From Gemmatimonas sp. (GTDB lineage: Bacteria > Gemmatimonadota > Gemmatimonadetes > Gemmatimonadales > Gemmatimonadaceae), in NCBI RefSeq assembly GCF_027531815.1, contig NZ_JAPZSK010000001.1:1-64000 (forward strand): 64,000 bases of DNA. The letters run 5' to 3'. The number at the start of each line of letters is the position of its first letter. Position 1 is the stretch's first letter. The translations under genes and the position numbers were made by a program. This document shows positions 48,257 through 60,273 of this stretch, piece by piece. The notes under the pieces were generated by a model, which was given only the letters and a program-made list of their open reading frames with translations, was not told where the DNA came from and ran no database searches.

Positions 48257-49681
48257 CTACTCGTGCACCGCCACCCGCTTCAGCCGTCGCCACCCCACCC
48301 ACCATAGCAGCGCGGTGGGCAACAACAGCGCCAGCAGGGTGCCACCCTGCCCCGCCAGCACCTCGCCAACCGATCTATCGTCGTAGGCAAAGCGGGGGAG
48401 CGACGCGAGCTCGGCGTGACGCACCTTGCGCTCGCCGAACACGCGCTGAAAGAAGAAGGTCTGCCACGCTTCGTGGTGGCGGTCGATGGCGGCGTCGAAC
48501 CGGCGGAATCGCGCCAGGCTACGATCGGCGAGATCGTGCAGCAGCTCCTGCGCCATCACGGCGGGACTCGCCATGCTGGCCAGCGCCGCGGCGCGATGCT
48601 GCGCGGCCAACGCCGAGTCGAACGCGGCGTACACGGGGCGCATGGCGTCGTTGGCCCGCTCCTGTTGCGCCAGCGTGCGTCCCCACGCATTGCTCGCCGC
48701 CAGTACCCCGGTCTGCAGCATCTCGGGGTGATCGGCGAGGAACTGGTTCACGGCGGTATCGCCCTGCGCGGCGGCCTCGTCGCTGGCGGCGCGCAGTGCC
48801 GTGGTGAGCGCCACCCGCGATGGCGATGGATACACCGCCGACACCACGGCGCTGACGGTCGCGGGAATGACCACCACCACCACGAGCCAGCTCCCCAGCA
48901 GCAGGACGGCACTTGCCGCCGACGACCGGGCCGTGGCGTTGACCACCGCGATCACCCCCACCCAGAAGGCGGCGTACAGCAGCACGACCCCCAGCCAGAG
49001 CAGCAGGCGCAGCAGGACTGCCGGGTCACCGAGTGGCACGCCCACGAGCCACGCCATGAGACCGAGCAACACGCACGCCACGCCCAGCACGAACCCGGCG
49101 CGCACCCCCAGCTTGGCCAGCAACACGCGACTGGCCGGCACCGGCTGCGCGCGCCACAGCGCCATGGTACCCTGGTCGCGTTCACCGGTGATGGTGTTGT
49201 AGGTCAGGGCAATGAGCAGCAGCGGCAGCACCCACACCACCACGAACACCAGGTCGAACCGTCCCGCCAGCAGGTTGTGCGGATTCTCCACTTCGTCGGT
49301 GGCCATGAAGCTGGCCTTGCTGCGCACCGAGACACGCGCGTAGTACGGGTGCAGGTCGCTCGCGCCCACGGCCAGCCCCCCCAGAGGCGGCACATCGAGA
49401 ATGGCATGAGTGGTGGCCCCCGACGCCCCGAGTACGCCCGCCGGTGGCACGCTCACGGTACTGTCCCCCTCGGCGCGCTGCAGCAACGAATCGAGCTTGG
49501 CCAAACGCTCGCTGTCGGCACGGCGGATATCGGCGACCGCCGCTCGCTGGAAGCTGCTCCACTGTCGGCCGTTCCAGGCGCCATACAGCGCGACGGCGGT
49601 GAACAGGACCGCCAGCACCCACGGCGCACGATCAGCCAGCAGCAGGCGCCATTCGTTGCGCCACACGGTGGGCCATCGCAT
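48257..49681 (-). CDS. ABC-2 type permease with DUF3526-like domain (2)
   Basis: A 474-residue inner-membrane protein with a helix at about 20-38, a large periplasmic loop (to about 150), then five further helices ('LVFVVVWVLPLLLIALTYNTITGERDQGTMALWRAQPV' with the conserved ERxxGT signature), and a second periplasmic domain before the last helix. Its ATG (49681) overlaps the stop of the preceding permease gene. The two permeases and the ATPase form one exporter-like complex. Confidence 0.85.
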   Translation of the reverse strand: MRWPTVWRNEWRLLLADRAPWVLAVLFTAVALYGAWNGRQWSSFQRAAVADIRRADSERLAKLDSLLQRAEGDSTVSVPPAGVLGASGATTHAILDVPPLGGLAVGASDLHPYYARVSVRSKASFMATDEVENPHNLLAGRFDLVFVVVWVLPLLLIALTYNTITGERDQGTMALWRAQPVPASRVLLAKLGVRAGFVLGVACVLLGLMAWLVGVPLGDPAVLLRLLLWLGVVLLYAAFWVGVIAVVNATARSSAASAVLLLGSWLVVVVVIPATVSAVVSAVYPSPSRVALTTALRAASDEAAAQGDTAVNQFLADHPEMLQTGVLAASNAWGRTLAQQERANDAMRPVYAAFDSALAAQHRAAALASMASPAVMAQELLHDLADRSLARFRRFDAAIDRHHEAWQTFFFQRVFGERKVRHAELASLPRFAYDDRSVGEVLAGQGGTLLALLLPTALLWWVGWRRLKRVAVHE

Positions 49682-51099
49682 CAGACGACCGGGGCGGCGG
49701 GGGCGCGCCACACCAGAGCGAGAGCCAGCACCAGCCACCCGGCCAGCACGAGCAACGCCGCCGCCTGTGTCGCGACCGACTGACGCACCGGCGGCGCATC
49801 GTATTCGAACGGGGGATACTTGGCCCACAGCTCGGGCGGCGCCTTCCAGTCCCATTCGCCGGTGAGCGTGTTGTCGCGGAAGTAATTGTTGGTCCAGCGA
49901 ATGAGCCCGCGACGATAGAGCTCGGCCTGCACGGCAAAGTGCCGGTGCTGTTCCACGTCCGTCCCGGCGAGCCCCATGGAGAGCGAGCGCACCGCCAGCA
50001 ACGGGGACACGAGCCCCATCCACTGCGTGAGCGTATTTTGCGCGCGGTAGCGATCGTACAGATCGCCGAAGTGCCGGTCGAACACCGTGTTGGCGTATTC
50101 TTCCGAGGCCTGCATGGCAATGGCATCGAAGTTCACCGGGAGCGCCTCCAGCGACACCGCCCGGTACTCACGCAGCGCCTGCGCCTCGACCGCCTTGCGC
50201 CGCGCATCGGCGGGGTTGTGACCGTCGAGTCCCTGCTCGATATCGCGCTGCATCGCCGCCTGGAACGCCACCGCCGACGTCGTGGGGTGCAGCTGCCGCG
50301 CGAGATCGGCCACTGCCCGCGGGGCCACGAGCGAATTCATCGTCCAGAAGCCCAGCAGCAGCACCAGCGCCACACGCACGTTACGGGCGCGTGCGGAAAC
50401 CACCAGGGCCAGCGCCAGCAGCACGGCGAAATACGCCAGATACGTCAGCATGAGGAGCGCGAACCGCACCAGGTCATCGGCTCCGCGCCCGCCGCCGGCG
50501 CCAAGCCAGAGCGTGGCCACGCCAAGCAGCGTGGCCGGTACCAGCACGACCGCGAGCGCCGAGGCGATGCCGGCCGCCTTGCCCAGCATGAGGGTGCGCA
50601 TGGGTACGCCAATGGCCGCCAACTGCCGCAGCGTGCCGGTTTCCCGCTCACCCGCGAAGGCCGGAAACGCCAGCATCACGATGAGCAGCGGCACCAGCAG
50701 CTGCAGCACCGCGGCGGCGGTCCATTCGCCGAAGCGGGCCACGTTGGGGCGGTCCATTGCCGGCCGGCGCGTGAACTCGTTCTGCTTGTGCGCCTCGAGC
50801 CATGTCGTCACGCCGGTGTATGCATCGACGCCGTGATCGACGAACGACAGCGGCAGCGACGGCTTGAACACCCAGAGGCCGTAGTGCGCCGCCGAGTGCG
50901 GATTCTTGGCGCCCTGGTTGACCCAGAACCCGCGCATGGCTTCCTGCGCGGCCTCATGGTCGCGTGCGGTGCCGCGCGAGGTGGTGAGCCCGGTGAGCAA
51001 CGCCACCGCGAGCAGCAGCAGCAGGGCCACGGCGGCCACGCGGAAACGACCGTCGCGCCACATCTCCATGCGTTCCTTGCGGGCGATATGCGCAATCAT
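49681..51099 (-). CDS. ABC-2 type permease with DUF3526-like domain (1)
   Basis: A 472-residue partner of the permease that follows, built the same way: N-terminal helix, large loop with 'FTRRPAMDRP', helices containing 'LIVMLAFPAFAGERETGTLRQLAA', and a late periplasmic domain. The ATG at 51099 is 10 bp after the ATPase stop. DUF3526 permeases occur in operons controlled by metal levels in other bacteria; the cargo is not established. Context here (an operator of zinc type upstream) suggests a link with zinc, without proof. Confidence 0.85.
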   Translation of the reverse strand: MIAHIARKERMEMWRDGRFRVAAVALLLLLAVALLTGLTTSRGTARDHEAAQEAMRGFWVNQGAKNPHSAAHYGLWVFKPSLPLSFVDHGVDAYTGVTTWLEAHKQNEFTRRPAMDRPNVARFGEWTAAAVLQLLVPLLIVMLAFPAFAGERETGTLRQLAAIGVPMRTLMLGKAAGIASALAVVLVPATLLGVATLWLGAGGGRGADDLVRFALLMLTYLAYFAVLLALALVVSARARNVRVALVLLLGFWTMNSLVAPRAVADLARQLHPTTSAVAFQAAMQRDIEQGLDGHNPADARRKAVEAQALREYRAVSLEALPVNFDAIAMQASEEYANTVFDRHFGDLYDRYRAQNTLTQWMGLVSPLLAVRSLSMGLAGTDVEQHRHFAVQAELYRRGLIRWTNNYFRDNTLTGEWDWKAPPELWAKYPPFEYDAPPVRQSVATQAAALLVLAGWLVLALALVWRAPAAPVV

Positions 51100-51109
51100 G
51101 GGTGGCCCC

Positions 51110-51880
51110 TCAGTCGTGCATGTGGGTGAGATACAGCTGTTCGAGATCGGTATGTCCGATGTCGGCGGTCGCCAGTTCGGCCACGAGCGTGCCACGCTTC
51201 ATGATGCCCACGCGCGTCCCTGACTCCTTGGCGCGAAAGAGATCGTGGGTGGCCATGAGCACCGCCGCGCCGCGCTCCCGAAGCTTCCCGATGAGTTCGG
51301 AGAATTCGTTGGACGCCTTGGGATCGAGCCCCGAGGTGGGTTCGTCGAGCAGCAGCACGTCGGCCTGGCGCGCGACGGCAATGGCAATGCCCACCTTCTG
51401 TCGCATCCCCTTGGAGAATCCGCCCACGCGCTGCTTGATCTGTTCGTCGCGAAGCCCCACGTCGCGCAGGTGCGCGATGAGCTCCTCCGTCGGCAACGGC
51501 GCCGCTGCGGCAAGCCCGGCGAAGTAGTCGAGATTCTCGAGCGCCGTGAGCTGCTTGTAGAGCATCACCGTTTCCGGGATGTACGCGAGGTGTCGCTTGG
51601 CCTGCAGCGGGTCGCGCGTGACGTCGATGCCGCACACTTCCGCTGTCCCCGCGGAAGGCGCGACGAAGTTGAGGAAGAGATTGATGGTCGTGCTCTTCCC
51701 GGCCCCGTTGGCCCCCAACAGGCAGTAGACCTCGCCCGCGTTGATGGTGAGGTCGAGGGCGTTGAGCGCCACCACATCGCCGTAGCGCTTGGTGAGGCCA
51801 CGGGCAGCGAGGCGGGGAACAGCGGGCGTGGCCGCCAATGTGGTGGCAGAGGCCGATACCGCGAGATCCGTGGAATGCAT
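51110..51880 (-). CDS. ABC transporter ATP-binding protein
   Basis: A 256-residue ABC ATPase of the CcmA/NosF-like class: Walker A GANGAGKST (56-64), C-loop around FSKGM near 154, Walker B LLLDEP near 175 and the His switch 'MATHD' at about 208. It energises the two downstream permeases. An N-terminal 25-residue extension is low-complexity. It is divergent from a lipoprotein gene; Zur-type operator D lies between. Confidence 0.92.
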   Translation of the reverse strand: MHSTDLAVSASATTLAATPAVPRLAARGLTKRYGDVVALNALDLTINAGEVYCLLGANGAGKSTTINLFLNFVAPSAGTAEVCGIDVTRDPLQAKRHLAYIPETVMLYKQLTALENLDYFAGLAAAAPLPTEELIAHLRDVGLRDEQIKQRVGGFSKGMRQKVGIAIAVARQADVLLLDEPTSGLDPKASNEFSELIGKLRERGAAVLMATHDLFRAKESGTRVGIMKRGTLVAELATADIGHTDLEQLYLTHMHD

Positions 51881-51937
51881 GGCGCGACCGGCGTTGGTGA
51901 GCCGACCGACCCGAAAGAATCGGCGGCATTGCTATGC

Positions 51938-51953
51938 TGATAGAGCCTTATCA
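51938..51953. promoter_or_regulatory. Zur-type operator D and promoter (ABC / lipoprotein)
   Basis: The site TGATAG-AGCC-TTATCA matches the 16-bp palindrome found at three other places. A TTGCTA (51929-51934) and CATTAT (51952-51957) with a 17-bp spacer make a promoter for the plus-strand gene, whose ATG follows by 5 bases; the palindrome covers the spacer and the start of the -10 box. Confidence 0.65.
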
Positions 51954-51962
51954 TTATCGCTG

Positions 51963-52850
51963 ATGCGCGTTTCGGCAAGAGTTTTCCTGCTGGGCACCTT
52001 CGCGGTGGCCGGCGCATGCAATGGACGCTGGTCCATGGCCATGCCACCCGACACCGGCGTGCCCGCCCCTCGTACCGCCGCCGCACGCGGAGCGCACCGG
52101 CACGTGCACGTTCCCGGAGAAGTGCGCGGTGAACGGCTTGGCCCCGTGTTCGGGCGATCGGTGGTCAGCACGGTCTATCGTGACGGCCAGTGGCTGCACG
52201 ATTCGGCCGCGACCGATTCCGTCATCATGGCGCTTGTCATGCTCGCCCCCACGCACGTCTCGTCGCTCTTCCGCTTTGCTGCCGGCGAGCGGCCCACGCC
52301 GCGCCATCTCACCGTATGGCAGCGCGCCCGGGAGCTGGTGGCGCGCGCACAGCCCGACGTGCGCTTCGATGTGGCGCTCGACGCGCTCTCGTACGGCTCC
52401 GGTCCGGAGGTGGTGGCGCATCTGCGTCTGCTCGACGAACTCCTCGCCCCCGACCTCTGGTACTTCGTGAACTGGGATGACGCGGAACGTCAGGCGTTCG
52501 ACGTGGTCGCCAGCGCCACGGCGCAGGCTCATGCCAACGGGCAACCCATTGGTGGCCTCACGCGAGAGAACGAGATCGCCACGGACAGTGACTTCGGCGT
52601 CCTCACGGCACGCGGCCAGGCGCGCGCCATTCGCCGACAGCTTGCCGCACTCCGCCAGTACCACGACCTGCCGTATCTCGTGCTGCGCACACCAGGAAGC
52701 GCCGGCGGTGTGCTCACCGAGACCGCTCGTTGCCACTATGCCTGGCGGCTGGTCCTCGGGGGCGGCGTCGGCGGTTTCGCCCCCGCAGCGCTCGCCGACT
52801 CGCTCAGGCTGGCGGCGCCATGTCGCCGAGCCGCGTTATCGCGTCGGTAA
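51963..52850 (+). CDS. exported lipoprotein-like protein with HRHVH motif, unknown
   Basis: A 295-residue protein with a short signal and Cys19 ('VAGACNG'). A possible metal-binding HRHVH sits near residue 44-50. The rest is helical with no family I can name. The ATG lies directly after the -10 box, so it is probably leaderless, under operator D. The 3' end overlaps the convergent GTPase gene by 47 bp. Location and control suggest a role in zinc limitation. Confidence 0.65.
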   Translation: MRVSARVFLLGTFAVAGACNGRWSMAMPPDTGVPAPRTAAARGAHRHVHVPGEVRGERLGPVFGRSVVSTVYRDGQWLHDSAATDSVIMALVMLAPTHVSSLFRFAAGERPTPRHLTVWQRARELVARAQPDVRFDVALDALSYGSGPEVVAHLRLLDELLAPDLWYFVNWDDAERQAFDVVASATAQAHANGQPIGGLTRENEIATDSDFGVLTARGQARAIRRQLAALRQYHDLPYLVLRTPGSAGGVLTETARCHYAWRLVLGGGVGGFAPAALADSLRLAAPCRRAALSRR

Positions 52851-53769
52851 GCGCGTCGATCGGCAGCGCCACGCCGATGAACAGCGCCGTGGGCATCGCG
52901 TCGGCGTGTGGCCACGACGCATCGAGACGTACCCGCGAACTCCCGGGGAGTCGGTTCCATACGTACATGGGCCCAGGCTCGTCGGCAAAGCGCACGAGCC
53001 CCTTGGCTCGTACCACCTGCTCGGGGAGATCGGCCACGAACTGTTCGAAGGCGCGGCGCGACACCAGCGACGGCAGGGGCAGCGCGATACTGCCGAAGGG
53101 ATGTTCATGCGGCGCCCGTTCGGCGCGTGACCGCGGCGCCGCGGCCTGCAGCCCCGTGCCACGTCCCACCTGCTGCGCATCGTGCTGGACGTGCGCGGCC
53201 AGGGCGTGCAGCCACTCGGCGAACGATGCGGTCTCCACGAAGGGGGCGCGTGGGTTCTCCGTGCGCACCGCGCCCTGCACCGCCACACGCCGCGCGGCAT
53301 CCAGCTTGTGCGTCCAGTTGAGCAGCAGGTGCGTGGCGGTGTTCACCTGCGCGCGTTCGAGCGCATTGTGCCACCAGCGCTTCTGCCACCGCGCCGCGTC
53401 CACCACGGTGAGTTGCAGCGGCAGAGTGAAGTGCGCGAGCCGCGTGTCGGTGGTGAGGTGGCCCAGCAGTTCGTCGGTTTCCGTGGCACCGTTCGCTTCG
53501 ATGATCATCACGCTGCCGGGATCGGGCGGCACGTCGTACAAGGTCTGCAGCAGCTCCCGCAGGGAGCCGCAGCACACGCACTCGCCGTTGAGCGGCGTGA
53601 CGAGCGCCTCGAGCGCCCCCAGCCGCGCGGCGTCGACGCGGGCGTTCTGAAAGTCGTTGAGGATGATGCGCACCCGCGTGCCCCGCGCCGCCAGCTGCGG
53701 CACGAGCTCCGAGAGAAACCGGGTCTTGCCGGCGCCAAGGAAGCCGGCCATGAGCACGAGCGGGATCAT
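52804..53769 (-). CDS. COG0523 (CobW/YjiA) family GTPase
   Basis: A 321-residue G3E-type GTPase: Walker A GFLGAGKT at 9-16, the metal-binding CxCC motif at 64-67, 'LTVVDAARW' (switch) and 'NWTHKLD' (in place of NKxD, weak). The C-terminal CobW domain is 'AEQFVADLPEQVVRAKGLVRFADEP'. Such proteins chaperone zinc to enzymes during zinc limitation. Its N/TKxD motif for guanine is poor, so nucleotide specificity is uncertain. It is convergent with and overlaps the lipoprotein gene. Confidence 0.88.
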   Translation of the reverse strand: MIPLVLMAGFLGAGKTRFLSELVPQLAARGTRVRIILNDFQNARVDAARLGALEALVTPLNGECVCCGSLRELLQTLYDVPPDPGSVMIIEANGATETDELLGHLTTDTRLAHFTLPLQLTVVDAARWQKRWWHNALERAQVNTATHLLLNWTHKLDAARRVAVQGAVRTENPRAPFVETASFAEWLHALAAHVQHDAQQVGRGTGLQAAAPRSRAERAPHEHPFGSIALPLPSLVSRRAFEQFVADLPEQVVRAKGLVRFADEPGPMYVWNRLPGSSRVRLDASWPHADAMPTALFIGVALPIDALTDAITRLGDMAPPA

Positions 53770-53829
53770 GAGGGGAAGCTACCAGACACACCGAGGGGGA
53801 TGGACGATCGCCGCGGGGCGAGTCATTAT

Positions 53830-53845
53830 TGAGAAGCTTCTATCA
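53830..53845. promoter_or_regulatory. Zur-type operator B (DUF3299 promoter)
   Basis: The site TGAGAA-GCTT-CTATCA is a 16-bp palindrome. TATCAT at 53841-53846 can serve as the -10 box for the DUF3299 gene 22 bp downstream, so a bound repressor would block it; the COG0523 gene begins 60 bp away on the other strand. Confidence 0.7.
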
Positions 53846-53868: not shown

Positions 53869-54360
53869 GTGCGTCCACGACAGCTCGCTTCCTGGGGACT
53901 CATGCTGCTCGTCGCCGCCATGTGCGGTGGCGTGCGGCCGCGGCCGATTCCCGATGCGCTGCCTGGTGCCGGGACGATCTCCGAACAGGGGGTCGTCACC
54001 GTAGACTGGAAGCTGCTCCGCGGGCTCGATTACCGCTCCGGCAAGATGAGCGACACGCTCAAGGCGCTCGATGGCAAGCGCGTTCGCGTGCCGGGCTTCA
54101 TCGTGCCGCTCGACGACCTGCAGGACCGGGCCAAGGAGTTCCTGCTCGTGCCGTACTTCGGCGCCTGCGTGCATCTGCCGCCGCCGCCGCCAAACCAGAT
54201 CGTGTACGCCACCCTGCGCAGCATGGCGACGCTCGCCCTCTTCGATCCGGTGTGGGTGATCGGGACACTGCGCGTCGAGAACTACACGTCCCCCTACGGT
54301 GTGGCGGGGTATCGCATCGAGGCCGAGAAGTTTTCGAAGTACGAGGATATGTCGCGATGA
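53869..54360 (+). CDS. DUF3299 domain protein (exported)
   Basis: A 163-residue protein with a signal peptide (about 1-20) and the DUF3299 core: 'LDGKRVRVPGFIVPLDD', 'FLLVPYFGACVHLPPPPPNQIVY' with a conserved Cys-x-His, and 'YRIEAEKF'. DUF3299 genes belong to zinc-responsive sets in several bacteria; the molecular role is unknown. The GTG start at 53869 is used. The next gene overlaps by ATGA. Confidence 0.88.
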   Translation: MRPRQLASWGLMLLVAAMCGGVRPRPIPDALPGAGTISEQGVVTVDWKLLRGLDYRSGKMSDTLKALDGKRVRVPGFIVPLDDLQDRAKEFLLVPYFGACVHLPPPPPNQIVYATLRSMATLALFDPVWVIGTLRVENYTSPYGVAGYRIEAEKFSKYEDMSR

Positions 54361-54863
54361 ACCGGATATCGAATCGTGTGTGCCTCGCTTCCGCGTTGCT
54401 CGTTGGCGCGCTTGGCGTACACGTTGCCAACGCCCAGCACACGCACGGACAGGCGACGCTGCTGATCGGTCTCGAAGGGGCAACGGGGCGCATCGAACTG
54501 CGCGCGCCGGCGGACGACATGTACGGCTTTGAACGGGCGCCACGCACGGCGGCCGAGCGGACCCGCCAGAACGCGGCCCTGACGCAGCTGCGTACCGGCG
54601 GGGCGACGTTGGTGAAGTTCGACGCGGCGCTGGGCTGTCGCGTGGTCGCAGACTCCGTAGGGGTGCTCCAGGGGCGCGGTACGCATGCCGAGGTGTATGC
54701 GCGCTGGCAGGTGCAGTGCGCGCGGCCGGTGGCAGGGCGTCCGATCGGCTTTGCCATCAGCCGCGCGTTTCCCAATGTCGAACGGGTGAGCGTGCAACTG
54801 CTCTCCGACAGTGCGCAGACCGGGCGCACCATCGTCCGCGATCGCGGCGTGGTTGTGCCCTGA
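54357..54863 (+). CDS. DUF2796 (ZrgA-like) periplasmic protein
   Basis: A 168-residue protein with a signal peptide ending 'VANAQHTHG', whose first mature residues contain H-T-H for metal, followed by the beta-rich DUF2796 domain: 'GQATLLIGLEGATGRIELRAPADDMYGFE'. ZrgA proteins bind zinc and are expressed in zinc limitation. It lacks the long His-rich loop of typical ZrgA, an oddity. It overlaps the DUF3299 stop. Confidence 0.8.
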   Translation: MNRISNRVCLASALLVGALGVHVANAQHTHGQATLLIGLEGATGRIELRAPADDMYGFERAPRTAAERTRQNAALTQLRTGGATLVKFDAALGCRVVADSVGVLQGRGTHAEVYARWQVQCARPVAGRPIGFAISRAFPNVERVSVQLLSDSAQTGRTIVRDRGVVVP

Positions 54864-54915: not shown

Positions 54916-56784
54916 TTACGTGGGCGACAGCTCGAAGCGCAGCTCACCGAGGAACCCGCGCGCGCCGCGACGCAGTACGGAAGCCGCGTACAGCACCGCC
55001 ACGAGCGCCACGGCGGTGAGTTGCCACCACGTGCCCTGCTCTTCGCCAACGAGGGCCGGCTGCGACGCGGTCAGGGTGGGCCACAGCAGGTTCACCAGCA
55101 GACCGAGGGCGACCGCCACACCCACCATGGCGCTCGAGAAGAGCCAGGCGAAGCGACGTCCGTGCAGGCGCGTGAGAATGCCCAGCGTGGCGATGTTGGT
55201 GGCGGGACCGGTGAGCAACAGCGCCAGGCCGGCGCCGGGGCTCACGCCGGCCGCCACGAGCACCGCTACCAGCGGTGTCGACGCGGACGCGCAGATGTAG
55301 AGCGGCATCCCCACCGCAGCGAAGACAAGCACATCGACGCCCGTGGGCAGCTGCGTGAGCCACGATCCTTCCAGCAGGGGCGTGGCGAACGCCGCTACCA
55401 CGATGCCCGCCAGAATCCACGGCGCCGTATGGTCGACCATGTCGGCGAGCCCCGACTGCGCGGCCTGCGCCAGCTTGTCGCGGGTGGTCGTGTTTGCACT
55501 ACCGGCGTCGCCCAGGAGCGGGAGCGATGCGCGCTTGCGCGGAACGAGGGCCCCCACCAGAAGGGCAACGGTCAGGGCGGCCAGCGCCGCCGCCGCGACA
55601 CGAATGACGGTGTACTGGGTGCCCAGCAGCGGCACGGACAGCAGAATGGCGTCGATCCCCAACTCCGGCGTGGCAATGAGAAACGCCACGGCCGCCGTGG
55701 TCGAAGCGCCCCGCTGCACCAGCTGCTGATACAGCGGCACCACGCCGCACGAACAGATCGGCAGCGGCAATCCCACAGCCATTCCGGCAAGCCCCTGCCG
55801 TACCCGTGATCCCTTGCTCATCCACGCCAGCCCGCCGGTGGGGAGATAGGCGTACACGAAGCCCGCGGTGATATAGGCCAGCAGGACGGCTGGCGCGCTG
55901 TCGAGACAGAGCGCCCAGAACGCGTCACGGATGGCAGTGAAGGTGGAGAGTTCCAGGGCATCGCGGCGCAACAGGAGCAGCAGCCCCAGCATCGCCGCGC
56001 CGCTCAGGGCCCCCAGCCCGTTCGCCCAGCGGACCCATGGCGAAGGGTGATCGTGCACGTGACCAGATGCATGCGCGTGATCTTGAGCGTGATCGTGCGC
56101 ATGTGTGTGCGCATGCGCGTGCCCGGTCGCCTCCGTACCATGCAGATGCGGGTGCCCGGGCTCGTGCTCGTGCGCGGGATCATGGTCGTGCGCCGGATGG
56201 GCGATCACATGCAGCAGCGACCCTCCCACCAGCGCCTCGAAGAGTTGCCCGGCGCGCTCCGGCAAGGCGGCGAACAGCGCCGCCTCCGTCTGGTAGCCCA
56301 CCACGATCGCGACGCCCATGAACAGCAGCACCGTCCACGGGACCACCGGATGCCGATCGCTCAACACCCACCACACCATGAGGCTGACCGGCAGCTGATG
56401 CAGCAGCACCCCGTAGCCCAGCAGACTGCCGCCACCCATGCTCTGCGCCAGTGCGCTGCCATCGAGCAGCGAGTGCATGGCGATCCCCACCATCGCGAGC
56501 ACCGTCACGATCAGGTGTGTCTGTCGCACACCGAAGGTGAGCAGTCGCTCGGCGAGCCCCGGCAGCACGAAACCGGCCGCGATGCACACCAGCGCCAGCA
56601 GATCGCCATGCTCGATGGCGTGCGGCACGACATCGAGGAGCACCAGCCCGCCAATGCAGATGAGCACGAAGCCATCCACGAAGGTGAGCAACGCGGCCTG
56701 CCGGCGCGCGAGTTGGGCCACCACCGGACCGAGGGCGAGCGCCGCCAGGGTGGCGAGAAGCAATGTCATGCCGGACATACTCAA
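54916..56784 (-). CDS. ZIP-like domain fused to SO_0444-type metal permease
   Basis: A 622-residue membrane protein with two parts. Residues 1-190 resemble a ZIP zinc transporter: eight helices, with MHSLLDG (His104, Asp108) and LLHQLP (His129) as the paired metal-site motifs of helices IV and V. Residues 192-246 form a loop with twenty His (HDH, HAHAH repeats). Residues 255-622 match the SO_0444/DUF318 permease family with the PxCSC motif (Cys344, Cys346). Family members are suggested Cu/Zn effluxers. The gene is the third of an operon L33 - GTPase - permease under a Zur-type site; this would fit an importer more than an exporter. Confidence 0.8.
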   Translation of the reverse strand: MSMSGMTLLLATLAALALGPVVAQLARRQAALLTFVDGFVLICIGGLVLLDVVPHAIEHGDLLALVCIAAGFVLPGLAERLLTFGVRQTHLIVTVLAMVGIAMHSLLDGSALAQSMGGGSLLGYGVLLHQLPVSLMVWWVLSDRHPVVPWTVLLFMGVAIVVGYQTEAALFAALPERAGQLFEALVGGSLLHVIAHPAHDHDPAHEHEPGHPHLHGTEATGHAHAHTHAHDHAQDHAHASGHVHDHPSPWVRWANGLGALSGAAMLGLLLLLRRDALELSTFTAIRDAFWALCLDSAPAVLLAYITAGFVYAYLPTGGLAWMSKGSRVRQGLAGMAVGLPLPICSCGVVPLYQQLVQRGASTTAAVAFLIATPELGIDAILLSVPLLGTQYTVIRVAAAALAALTVALLVGALVPRKRASLPLLGDAGSANTTTRDKLAQAAQSGLADMVDHTAPWILAGIVVAAFATPLLEGSWLTQLPTGVDVLVFAAVGMPLYICASASTPLVAVLVAAGVSPGAGLALLLTGPATNIATLGILTRLHGRRFAWLFSSAMVGVAVALGLLVNLLWPTLTASQPALVGEEQGTWWQLTAVALVAVLYAASVLRRGARGFLGELRFELSPT

Positions 56785-56829: not shown

Positions 56830-58074
56830 TCAGGCGACGCCGTCGTCATCCCCCTCTGCCTCGGCCCACTCCGGGAAGGGATCGGCGAACGCCGACCACA
56901 GCGCCGGACCGGCGGCAAACTCTTCCGGCGTCACGAGACACGCGTCGAGCGCGGCGGTCAATGCCGCCTGGTCGAGCTGCTGCCCGATGATGGCGATCTC
57001 CTGACGTCGGTCCCCCACCTCGGGGTCCCAGTGGCCTTCGATGATCGCGCGCTCCTCGTCGTCCACCTCCCAGGTCTCAGCCGGGCTGGCCGCGTACCAG
57101 TAGCCCGCCGGGTTCACCTCGAGCAGTTGGCCCGCCTGCGCCCAGCTGCCCACCAGGTCGGGGCGGGTGGCAATCCAGAAGAACCCCTTGGCGCGCAGCA
57201 CCCCGGGGAGGCCACGATCCACCTGTTCCCACAGCCGCTGCGGATGAAACGGACGCCGCGCGCGATACACGAAGCTCGAAATGCCGTATTCCTCGGTCTC
57301 GGGGACATGCTCCCCGGCGAGCTCCTTCTGCCACCCCGGTGCCGCCTCGGCCTGCGCGAAATCAAAGAGTCCCCGGCCAAGCAGGGCGGAGGGCGGCACC
57401 ACGCCCCGCGTCGCCGTCACCAGCTCGGCCTCCGGATTGAGGTGGCGCACAATGGCCACCAGCCGCCCCAGTTCGTCGTCGCCCACCAGATCGGCCTTGT
57501 TGATGACGAGGACATTGGCGAACTCCACCTGGTCGATGAGCAGATCGGGAATGGTGCGTTCGTCGTCGTCGCCGAGCGCGAGCTGGCGCGCCTTGAGATC
57601 GTCGAGCGATCCGAGGTCGGCGAGAAAGCGGTACGCGTCGACGACGGTGACCATGGTGTCGAGCCGGGCCACCTGCGCGAGTGATACCCCGTCTTCAGTT
57701 TCGAAGGTGAAGGTGGCGGCAACCGGCAACGGTTCGCCAATCCCGGTGCTTTCGATGAGCAGATAGTCGAAGCGCCCTTCGGCGGCGAGCCGCGCAACCT
57801 CCTGCAGCAGATCGTCGCGCAGCGTGCAGCAGATACACCCGTTGGTCATTTCCACCAGCGTTTCCTGCGTACGCGAGAGCGCCGCATCGCCGCCGCGCAC
57901 CAGCTGCGCGTCGATGTTCACCTCGCTCATGTCGTTCACGATCACCGCCACGCGCAGGCCTTCGCGATTGGCGAGCACGTGATTGAGCAGCGTGGTCTTG
58001 CCGGCACCCAGGAACCCCGAGAGCACGGTAACCGGCAACCGGCGGTCGCTGGTCGGCACGGCGGGCGCGCTCAC
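56830..58074 (-). CDS. COG0523 GTPase, ZNG1/ZigA-like zinc metallochaperone
   Basis: A 414-residue G3E GTPase with Walker A GFLGAGKT (20-27), the CxCC motif (80-83, CICC), the '[12 protein letters not shown]' switch, NKAD (around 197) and the C-terminal CobW domain ('[16 protein letters not shown]', '[14 protein letters not shown]'). It has more complete motifs than its paralog at 52.8 kb. ZigA/ZNG1 GTPases deliver zinc to client metalloenzymes. The GTG start (58074) overlaps the L33 stop (GTGA), and the permease gene follows after 45 bp. Confidence 0.92.
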
Positions 58075-58229
58075 TTGGACTCCCGGTAGAGCACGTGCTT
58101 CTTCACGAATGGATCGTACTTGCGTTGCTCGAGCCGTTGCGGCGTCGTGCGCGGATTCTTGGTGGTGACGTACATGTGGTGGCTCTCGGTGGAGCGCAGC
58201 TTGACGTTCACGCGGCCGCTCTTGGCCAT
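58071..58229 (-). CDS. rpmG: ribosomal protein L33, Cys-less
   Basis: A 52-residue L33 with '[29 protein letters not shown]', the Cys-less form like that of E. coli; the zinc-binding CxxC pairs of the other type are absent. Zinc-free L33 is Zur-controlled in other bacteria. A GGGAG ribosome site precedes the ATG. It is the first gene of the operon with the GTPase and the permease. Confidence 0.95.
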
Positions 58230-58248: not shown

Positions 58249-58283
58249 TTGACTACACAGTATTGAGATCCTAGTATCACTAA
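58249..58283 (+). promoter_or_regulatory. promoter and Zur-type operator C (L33 / unknown gene)
   Basis: TTGACT (58249-58254) and TAGTAT (58272-58277) with a 17-bp spacer make a near-consensus promoter for the plus-strand gene at 58284. The palindrome TGAGAT-CCTA-GTATCA (58264-58279) overlaps the -10 box. For the minus strand L33 transcript, TTAGTG and TACTGT around the same site can serve as -35 and -10. Confidence 0.7.
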
Positions 58284-59901: not shown

Positions 59902-60273
59902 ATGGAACGCAATACGCGGCAGCGCGATGCCATCCGACTGGTGTTCGAGGAGATTCCCCGGCCCCTTGGCCCCACCGAGGTCCTCGAGTACGGGCGGAGC
60001 CACGTCTCGAAGCTGGGCATCGCCACGGTCTATCGCACCATCAACTCCCTCGTGGATAGCGGCTGGCTGGTGCCGGTGGAGCTGCCGGGCGAGCCGCCGC
60101 GCTACGAGCGCGCCGGCTCGGCCCATCATCATCATTTCCGCTGCCGGCAGTGCACCCGCGTGTTCGAGATTCACGGGTGCCCGGGTGACCTGCGGGATCT
60201 CACGCCGCAGGGGTTCCACCTCGAGTCGCATGAGGTGGTGCTGTACGGGCTGTGTGACAAGTGCGCGGCCTGA
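59902..60273 (+). CDS. Fur family transcriptional regulator (Zur candidate)
   Basis: A 123-residue metal-dependent repressor. The N-terminal winged helix has 'LGPTEVLEYGRSHVSKLGIATVYRTINSLVDSGWL'; the dimerisation domain has the regulatory metal ligands in HHHHF (75-78) and His110, and the structural zinc site Cys81-x2-Cys84 and Cys118-x2-Cys121. The family includes Fur, Zur and PerR; the sequence cannot tell them apart with certainty. Four zinc-type operators in the surrounding 20 kb favour Zur, though a role over the copper genes downstream is equally possible. The SCO gene start overlaps its stop. Confidence 0.88.
   Translation: MERNTRQRDAIRLVFEEIPRPLGPTEVLEYGRSHVSKLGIATVYRTINSLVDSGWLVPVELPGEPPRYERAGSAHHHHFRCRQCTRVFEIHGCPGDLRDLTPQGFHLESHEVVLYGLCDKCAA

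Follow-up and report, generated by a model that had tools for sequence, protein, structure and literature searches.

One gene of a Gemmatimonas sp., lying in the 64,000-nucleotide stretch of DNA that was analysed as a whole (the window), encodes a ZIP-fold domain and an SO_0444-type permease in a single chain. Two known transporter folds are thereby combined in one conserved architecture that carries no name. Sequence, profile and structure comparison all back the assignment, which a first-pass annotation had proposed from the letters of the DNA. The gene sits in what looks like a zinc-starvation island, apparently switched on by zinc shortage. We consider it rather likely that the protein is a zinc-starvation importer under a Zur-like repressor, with the permease half as an attached export arm; the export arm is the least certain element of this reading. 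Import and export of trace metals are normally the work of separate, oppositely regulated proteins, and a conserved chain with both folds, here encoded beside a metallochaperone in a zinc-starvation operon, would be a test of selectivity or self-limitation built into one transporter. A search of open-licence papers for a ZIP/SO_0444-type fusion found no description of one.

Gene model and reading frame

The features of the locus are collected in Table 1. The ATG six bases into the open reading frame is more likely to be the start codon than the TTG, and residues are numbered here from this Met, giving values two lower than those of the first-pass annotation. The motif residues named there (H104, D108, H129, C344 and C346 in its numbering) are all found at their places in the 622-residue frame, and the count of 20 His in its residues 192–246 is also correct; the whole protein has 28. 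Homologues with the same architecture are 36–88% identical. Comparison with the relative L001 gave dN/dS values of 0.12 for the ZIP part, 0.08 for the loop and 0.10 for TM8 plus permease, which indicate purifying selection across all three parts. Homologues and selection together show that the frame is not a chance one, and selection of this kind on each half speaks for both being functional in this organism. A joining of two genes by chance or by assembly has next to no probability: the identical fusion is found in 42 sampled proteins of three deep lineages, which already refutes it, and no evidence in its favour was found.

Table 1 Features of the locus (window coordinates; residues counted from Met)
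Feature	Position	Strand	Remarks
ABC ATPase and two DUF3526/ABC-2 permeases	48257..51880	(-)	
Zur-like operator (predicted)	51938..51956	(+)	upstream of ABC operon, 58 nt before ATPase start
CobW2, second COG0523 GTPase	52804..53769	(-)	directly after the fusion gene in most relatives
Zur-like operator (predicted)	53827..53845	(-)	between CobW2 and the divergent zrgE-zrgA pair
zrgE-like DUF3299 protein	53869..54360	(+)	PF11736 121.3 bits
zrgA zinc uptake protein	54357..54863	(+)	PF10986 110.7 bits
ZIP-like/permease fusion gene	54916..56784	(-)	622 aa from TTG; ATG at 56778
ArsP_1/SO_0444-type permease domain, PICSC	55090..55926	(-)	PF03773 120.7 bits (curated cut-off 32.3); NF033936 211.6 bits (equivalog cut-off 300)
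ZIP-like domain	55966..56778	(-)	Met 1-271, TM1-TM8, His loop inside; BbZIP match, hhalign, PF02535 in homologues
His-rich TM7-TM8 loop	56041..56211	(-)	Met about 190-246; 20 His; low pLDDT
zigA, COG0523 zinc metallochaperone GTPase	56830..58074	(-)	NF038288 609.8 bits (cut-off 600)
Ribosomal protein L33 paralogue, 0 Cys	58071..58229	(-)	4-nt overlap with zigA
Zur-like operator (predicted) TGATACTAGGATCTCAATA	58261..58279	(-)	precedes L33-zigA-fusion
Zur-type Fur-family regulator	59902..60273	(+)	matches Zur structures best in the PDB (2o03, 3mwm, 7vo0)

The ZIP-fold half

The N-terminal half is predicted to adopt the eight-helix ZIP fold (TM1–TM8), an assignment on which profile comparison, the AlphaFold model and matches to BbZIP of Bordetella bronchiseptica agree. 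A Pfam search with the window protein did not return PF02535 at its curated cut-off. The profile is matched by nine of 14 homologues (best 2.9e-7), the matches of relatives falling below the cut-off, as in L012 (27.2 against 35.1). Residues 95–252 of L012 align with profile positions 174–322, a match that spans the His loop and reaches the end of the ZIP profile. When a profile of the ZIP half was compared by hhalign with 20 canonical ZIPs of the same phylum, the match had a probability of 98.2% (E 2e-13, 228 columns). In a phmmer search of the PDB the fusion protein matched Zinc transporter 7 alone, in its His stretch, and a profile search had no match among the PDB sequences; BbZIP was reached by structure comparison, not by sequence alone. 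The AlphaFold2 model of the fusion protein was built from 14 sequences (pLDDT 77.8, pTM 0.79). In VIA-align comparison of the full model seven BbZIP chains rank first (Z 15.0–16.3), above every unrelated row, and residues 1–271 superpose on BbZIP 57–308 (205–223 aligned, rmsd 3.8–4.8). With the ZIP half folded alone, the first eight rows hold BbZIP entries (Z 8.9–11.1), and Foldseek gave a probability of 1.00.

The first-pass annotation had placed the ZIP part in residues 1–190 and proposed structure prediction as a check. The prediction finds the ZIP fold, to which these residues do belong, but TM8 (about 247–271) falls past the His loop. Since the ZIP part takes in TM8 beyond it, the His-rich stretch is the TM7–TM8 loop, which by analogy with BbZIP topology is predicted to be cytoplasmic. 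The loop is disordered in the AlphaFold2 model (pLDDT below 50 at 197–244). In BbZIP a His-rich cytoplasmic loop between TM3 and TM4 is a built-in zinc sensor (PMC10256678). The His-rich loop is not universal: many fusion members have 0–3 His at this place, some carry a His cluster on the C-terminal tail and some have none at all. The earlier suggestion of an internal metal store is weakened by this variation, and the idea that the loop is an essential store was given up on the same grounds.

His-102 and His-127 are present in all fused proteins (42/42), all standalone ZIP-like forms (30/30; see below) and all canonical ZIPs compared (20/20). Position 106 is Asp or Glu in 42/42 fused proteins and is invariant in the standalone forms also, while Pro-130 is invariant in fused and canonical ZIPs; the TM4 HxxxD/E and TM5 HxxP motifs are complete in every one of the 42 fused proteins. 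The full M1/M2 binuclear site is absent, the positions of E211, N178 and D208 of BbZIP being occupied by Val-131, Ser-103 and Gln-128 in the window protein. Among the fused proteins position 131 is Val in 35 of 42, position 103 is mostly Ser or Ala and position 128 mostly Arg or Gln. In TM7, His-190 is found where 20/20 canonical ZIPs have Tyr. A second His follows at 194; its spacing from a conserved Pro suggests that it corresponds to H275 of BbZIP, a ligand of the M3 egress site (PMC11549095). The transport site of BbZIP is M1, and BbZIP that has lost M2 is only modestly less active (PMC11549095); the residue pattern is thus compatible with a ZIP that is altered yet still works. A weakened metal site is possible in view of Val-131 at E211 and of Ser-103 and Gln-128 at M2.

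The permease half

The C-terminal half exceeds the curated cut-off of ArsP_1 (PF03773) and stays under that of the SO_0444 equivalog (NF033936). With the cut-offs of PF02535 and NF033936 both missed, the fusion is a curated member of neither the ZIP nor the SO_0444 family, and the chain did not turn out to be one established full-length family. The features of the SO_0444 type, the PxCSC motif and the permease domain, are present. CSC is kept in 41/42 fused proteins and the other permease motifs in 33–41 of the 42; among homologues this half is slightly better conserved than the ZIP half. A search with PF11449 (ArsP_2) was uninformative, matching nothing, controls included. Residues 277–570 of the model resemble the ArsB, YdaH, INDY and CNT structures with Z up to 13.6, a middling value that points to a common elevator-like arrangement and not to function. 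Only one relative of this half has been phenotyped: SO_0444, which confers protection against excess zinc and copper (PMC3219624). Excess Cd and Cu induce another relative (PMC10092412). We note that in one genome (G490, L144:2023-3925) the permease half is split over two reading frames, either a frameshift or a sequencing error.

Genomic context

On the minus strand the genes stand in the order L33–zigA–fusion. The low-zinc setting expected in the first-pass annotation is supported by the Zur-like regulator, the operator sites, the Cys-free L33, ZigA and ZrgA; zrgA and the DUF3299 gene are zinc-starvation genes in Vibrio (PMC9817125). The genome encodes two FUR proteins, this regulator being one. 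The window contains three copies of the operator pattern TGATANNNNNNTNTCANTA, where 0.00 are expected (before L33, between CobW2 and zrgE–zrgA, and before the ABC operon), a count that is partly circular because the pattern was refined on those same sites. An earlier form, TGATANTNNNNTNNCANTA, derived from relatives plus the window locus, has five matches in the 4.3-Mb genome when one mismatch is allowed, three of them in the locus; the reversed control has four. In L001, L013, L071 and L073 a Zur-like operator again precedes L33 or the fusion gene. With a regulator present and a predicted operator upstream, the operon classes as a putative member of the Zur regulon. One more exact operator match at another place in the genome (L086) was set aside; it looks like chance, and the genes nearby have no evident zinc link. 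The ABC ATPase and DUF3526 permeases behind a Zur-like operator (48257–51956) form a candidate zinc-related ABC system. L33 and zigA also stand beside the fusion in L001, L007, L013, L071 and L074. In most other relatives a second COG0523 GTPase directly follows the fusion, and most of the distant members are found outside the L33–zigA–fusion operon context.

The fusion is a zinc-uptake candidate for a genome (99.9% complete) in which ZnuB (PF00950), ZnuA (PF01297) and canonical ZIP (PF02535) gave no match, the controls being matched; a search of the same genome for a second SO_0444-type permease found none. The argument that it is the sole importer was dropped once ZrgA had been found. ZrgA and the ZrgE-like protein point to another route of zinc uptake, and the fusion thus need not be the main importer. 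Within the genus the fusion is present in 14 of 16 sampled genomes. In the two others, G111 and G218, canonical ZIPs match strongly (1e-28 and 6e-32) and there is no such permease. Only G019 and G249 among the 14 fusion-bearing genomes match PF02535. In G249 it is the fusion itself that matches weakly; the G019 fusion does not match, so this genome may hold a further ZIP. In the G019 fusion (L071:5388-7142) gene order, ZIP half and His loop are intact, and the permease half is in frame and lacks the CSC, TPE and TGPATN motifs. One more ZIP match and an ABC-3 match, both weak, were obtained in G019, and the loss of the permease motifs may therefore reflect redundancy.

Distribution and history

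The search for the same architecture in other genomes yielded the 42 sampled proteins. The fusion is found across the genus and the family to which this genome belongs and in other families of Gemmatimonadota; outside this phylum it was found in the phylum of a Bdellovibrionota MAG (L014) and in that of L012. Thirty standalone ZIP-like forms of about 200 residues, without a permease, fall in the same clade as the fused ZIP halves. Fused and standalone forms together make one clade (support 100/99) apart from the canonical ZIPs. The fusion defines a ZIP-like clade missed by Pfam. The standalone forms occupy three places in the unrooted tree, where well-supported branches force at least two changes. 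Some 30 standalone copies were examined for an unfused pair, and none had a permease gene nearby; plasmid records contained no copy of the fusion. The statement that the two families are usually separate proteins needs qualifying for the ZIP-like branch, in which an old fusion followed by losses of the permease, leaving the standalone forms, appears to fit the unrooted tree best.

Three standalone proteins (L045:3911-4543, L048 and L053) have seven helices, TM8 being absent together with the permease; a FeoB-like gene appears to lie near at least the L045 gene. In family f5 (L078:7599-14000, also L080, L081 and L083) the fusion gene is divergent to an apparent type I polyketide synthase, with KS, AT, DH, MT and ER domains in L078. 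A link to a metallophore is conceivable there.

Proposed mechanism and alternatives

Of the proposed roles, uptake of zinc by the ZIP half during starvation has the best support, and taken alone it is probably correct. As zinc falls, the Zur-like repressor would release the L33–zigA–fusion operon. The ZIP half would then carry Zn2+ inward by elevator motion, and by way of the TM7 His residues (H190 and H194) the metal would reach the His loop on the cytoplasmic side. There it may be buffered, curb additional uptake or pass to ZigA. The role of the permease half is the least certain part: it would vent zinc in excess, or soft metals (Cu, Cd) imported by mistake, and one chain would both import and proofread. 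That this half is an export or proofreading arm is a tentative assignment, its chances somewhat below even; it may also be a further route of import or have a structural role. The complete picture, one chain in which import and export elevators are joined by a cytoplasmic metal-binding loop into a self-limiting or proofreading zinc transporter, is speculative and rather doubtful. A two-way valve is possible.

The protection that SO_0444 gives against zinc and copper excess (PMC3219624) is odd for a member of a starvation operon, and counts against our reading. Both halves might instead import, the permease half having become, under Zur control, an additional uptake route or acting in series with its ZIP partner. 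The starvation context of the operon suits such an arrangement, as does a permease half whose near-complete motifs and low dN/dS mark it as functional here. However, its only phenotyped relative is of the efflux type (PMC3219624) and another responds to Cd and Cu excess (PMC10092412), and we regard import by both halves as unlikely. The protein could conversely be an efflux pump in effect, the ZIP-like half with its weakened site being a sensor or scaffold that gates the permease. Such a role could be read into the missing fourth M1 ligand and M2 ligands and the slightly better conservation of the permease half; it sits poorly with the invariance of H102, D/E106 and H127, with standalone ZIP-like forms arising at no fewer than two places in the tree, with the retention of the ZIP half in G019 where the permease motifs are lost, and with the starvation context. 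We judge it improbable.

Starvation control itself assumes that the Zur-like protein represses. Were it to activate the operon, an exporter would be made at high zinc, as with zitB in Streptomyces coelicolor. The position of the operator alone cannot separate activation from repression, and a Zur that activates an exporter gene has been described (PMC5472717, PMC11077047). The Cys-free L33 and ZigA share strand and operator with the fusion, however, and in known systems both are tied to zinc starvation, which makes activation very improbable here.

Comparison with known systems

The locus has ZrgA, a DUF3299 (ZrgE-like) protein and a Zur-like operator in common with the ZrgABCDE zinc uptake system of Vibrio, but the fusion protein is no part of that system as described (PMC9820375, PMC9817125). 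ArsP_1 permeases (PF03773) and SaoE (NF040736) have the same domain length as the permease half, and the PF03773 cut-off is exceeded; against SaoE, however, the fusion scores 107.5 bits where the cut-off is 325, and ArsP_1 and SaoE are without a ZIP part. SO_0444 of Shewanella oneidensis (NF033936, Cu/Zn efflux) shares the whole permease domain including PxCSC. In the fusion this domain reaches 211.6 of the 300 bits, stands behind a ZIP-like domain and belongs to a starvation operon rather than to a ZntR-like regulator. With BbZIP (PDB 5tsa, 7z6n, 8ght) the N-terminal half shares the eight-helix fold, TM4 HxxxD, TM5 HxxP and the invariant Pro52. It differs in its separate clade (100/99), in scoring below PF02535, in the Val at E211 and the changed M2, and in having His190 where TM7 of canonical ZIPs carries Tyr, with His194 in addition; its His-rich stretch lies in the TM7–TM8 loop and not between TM3 and TM4, and a permease is attached.
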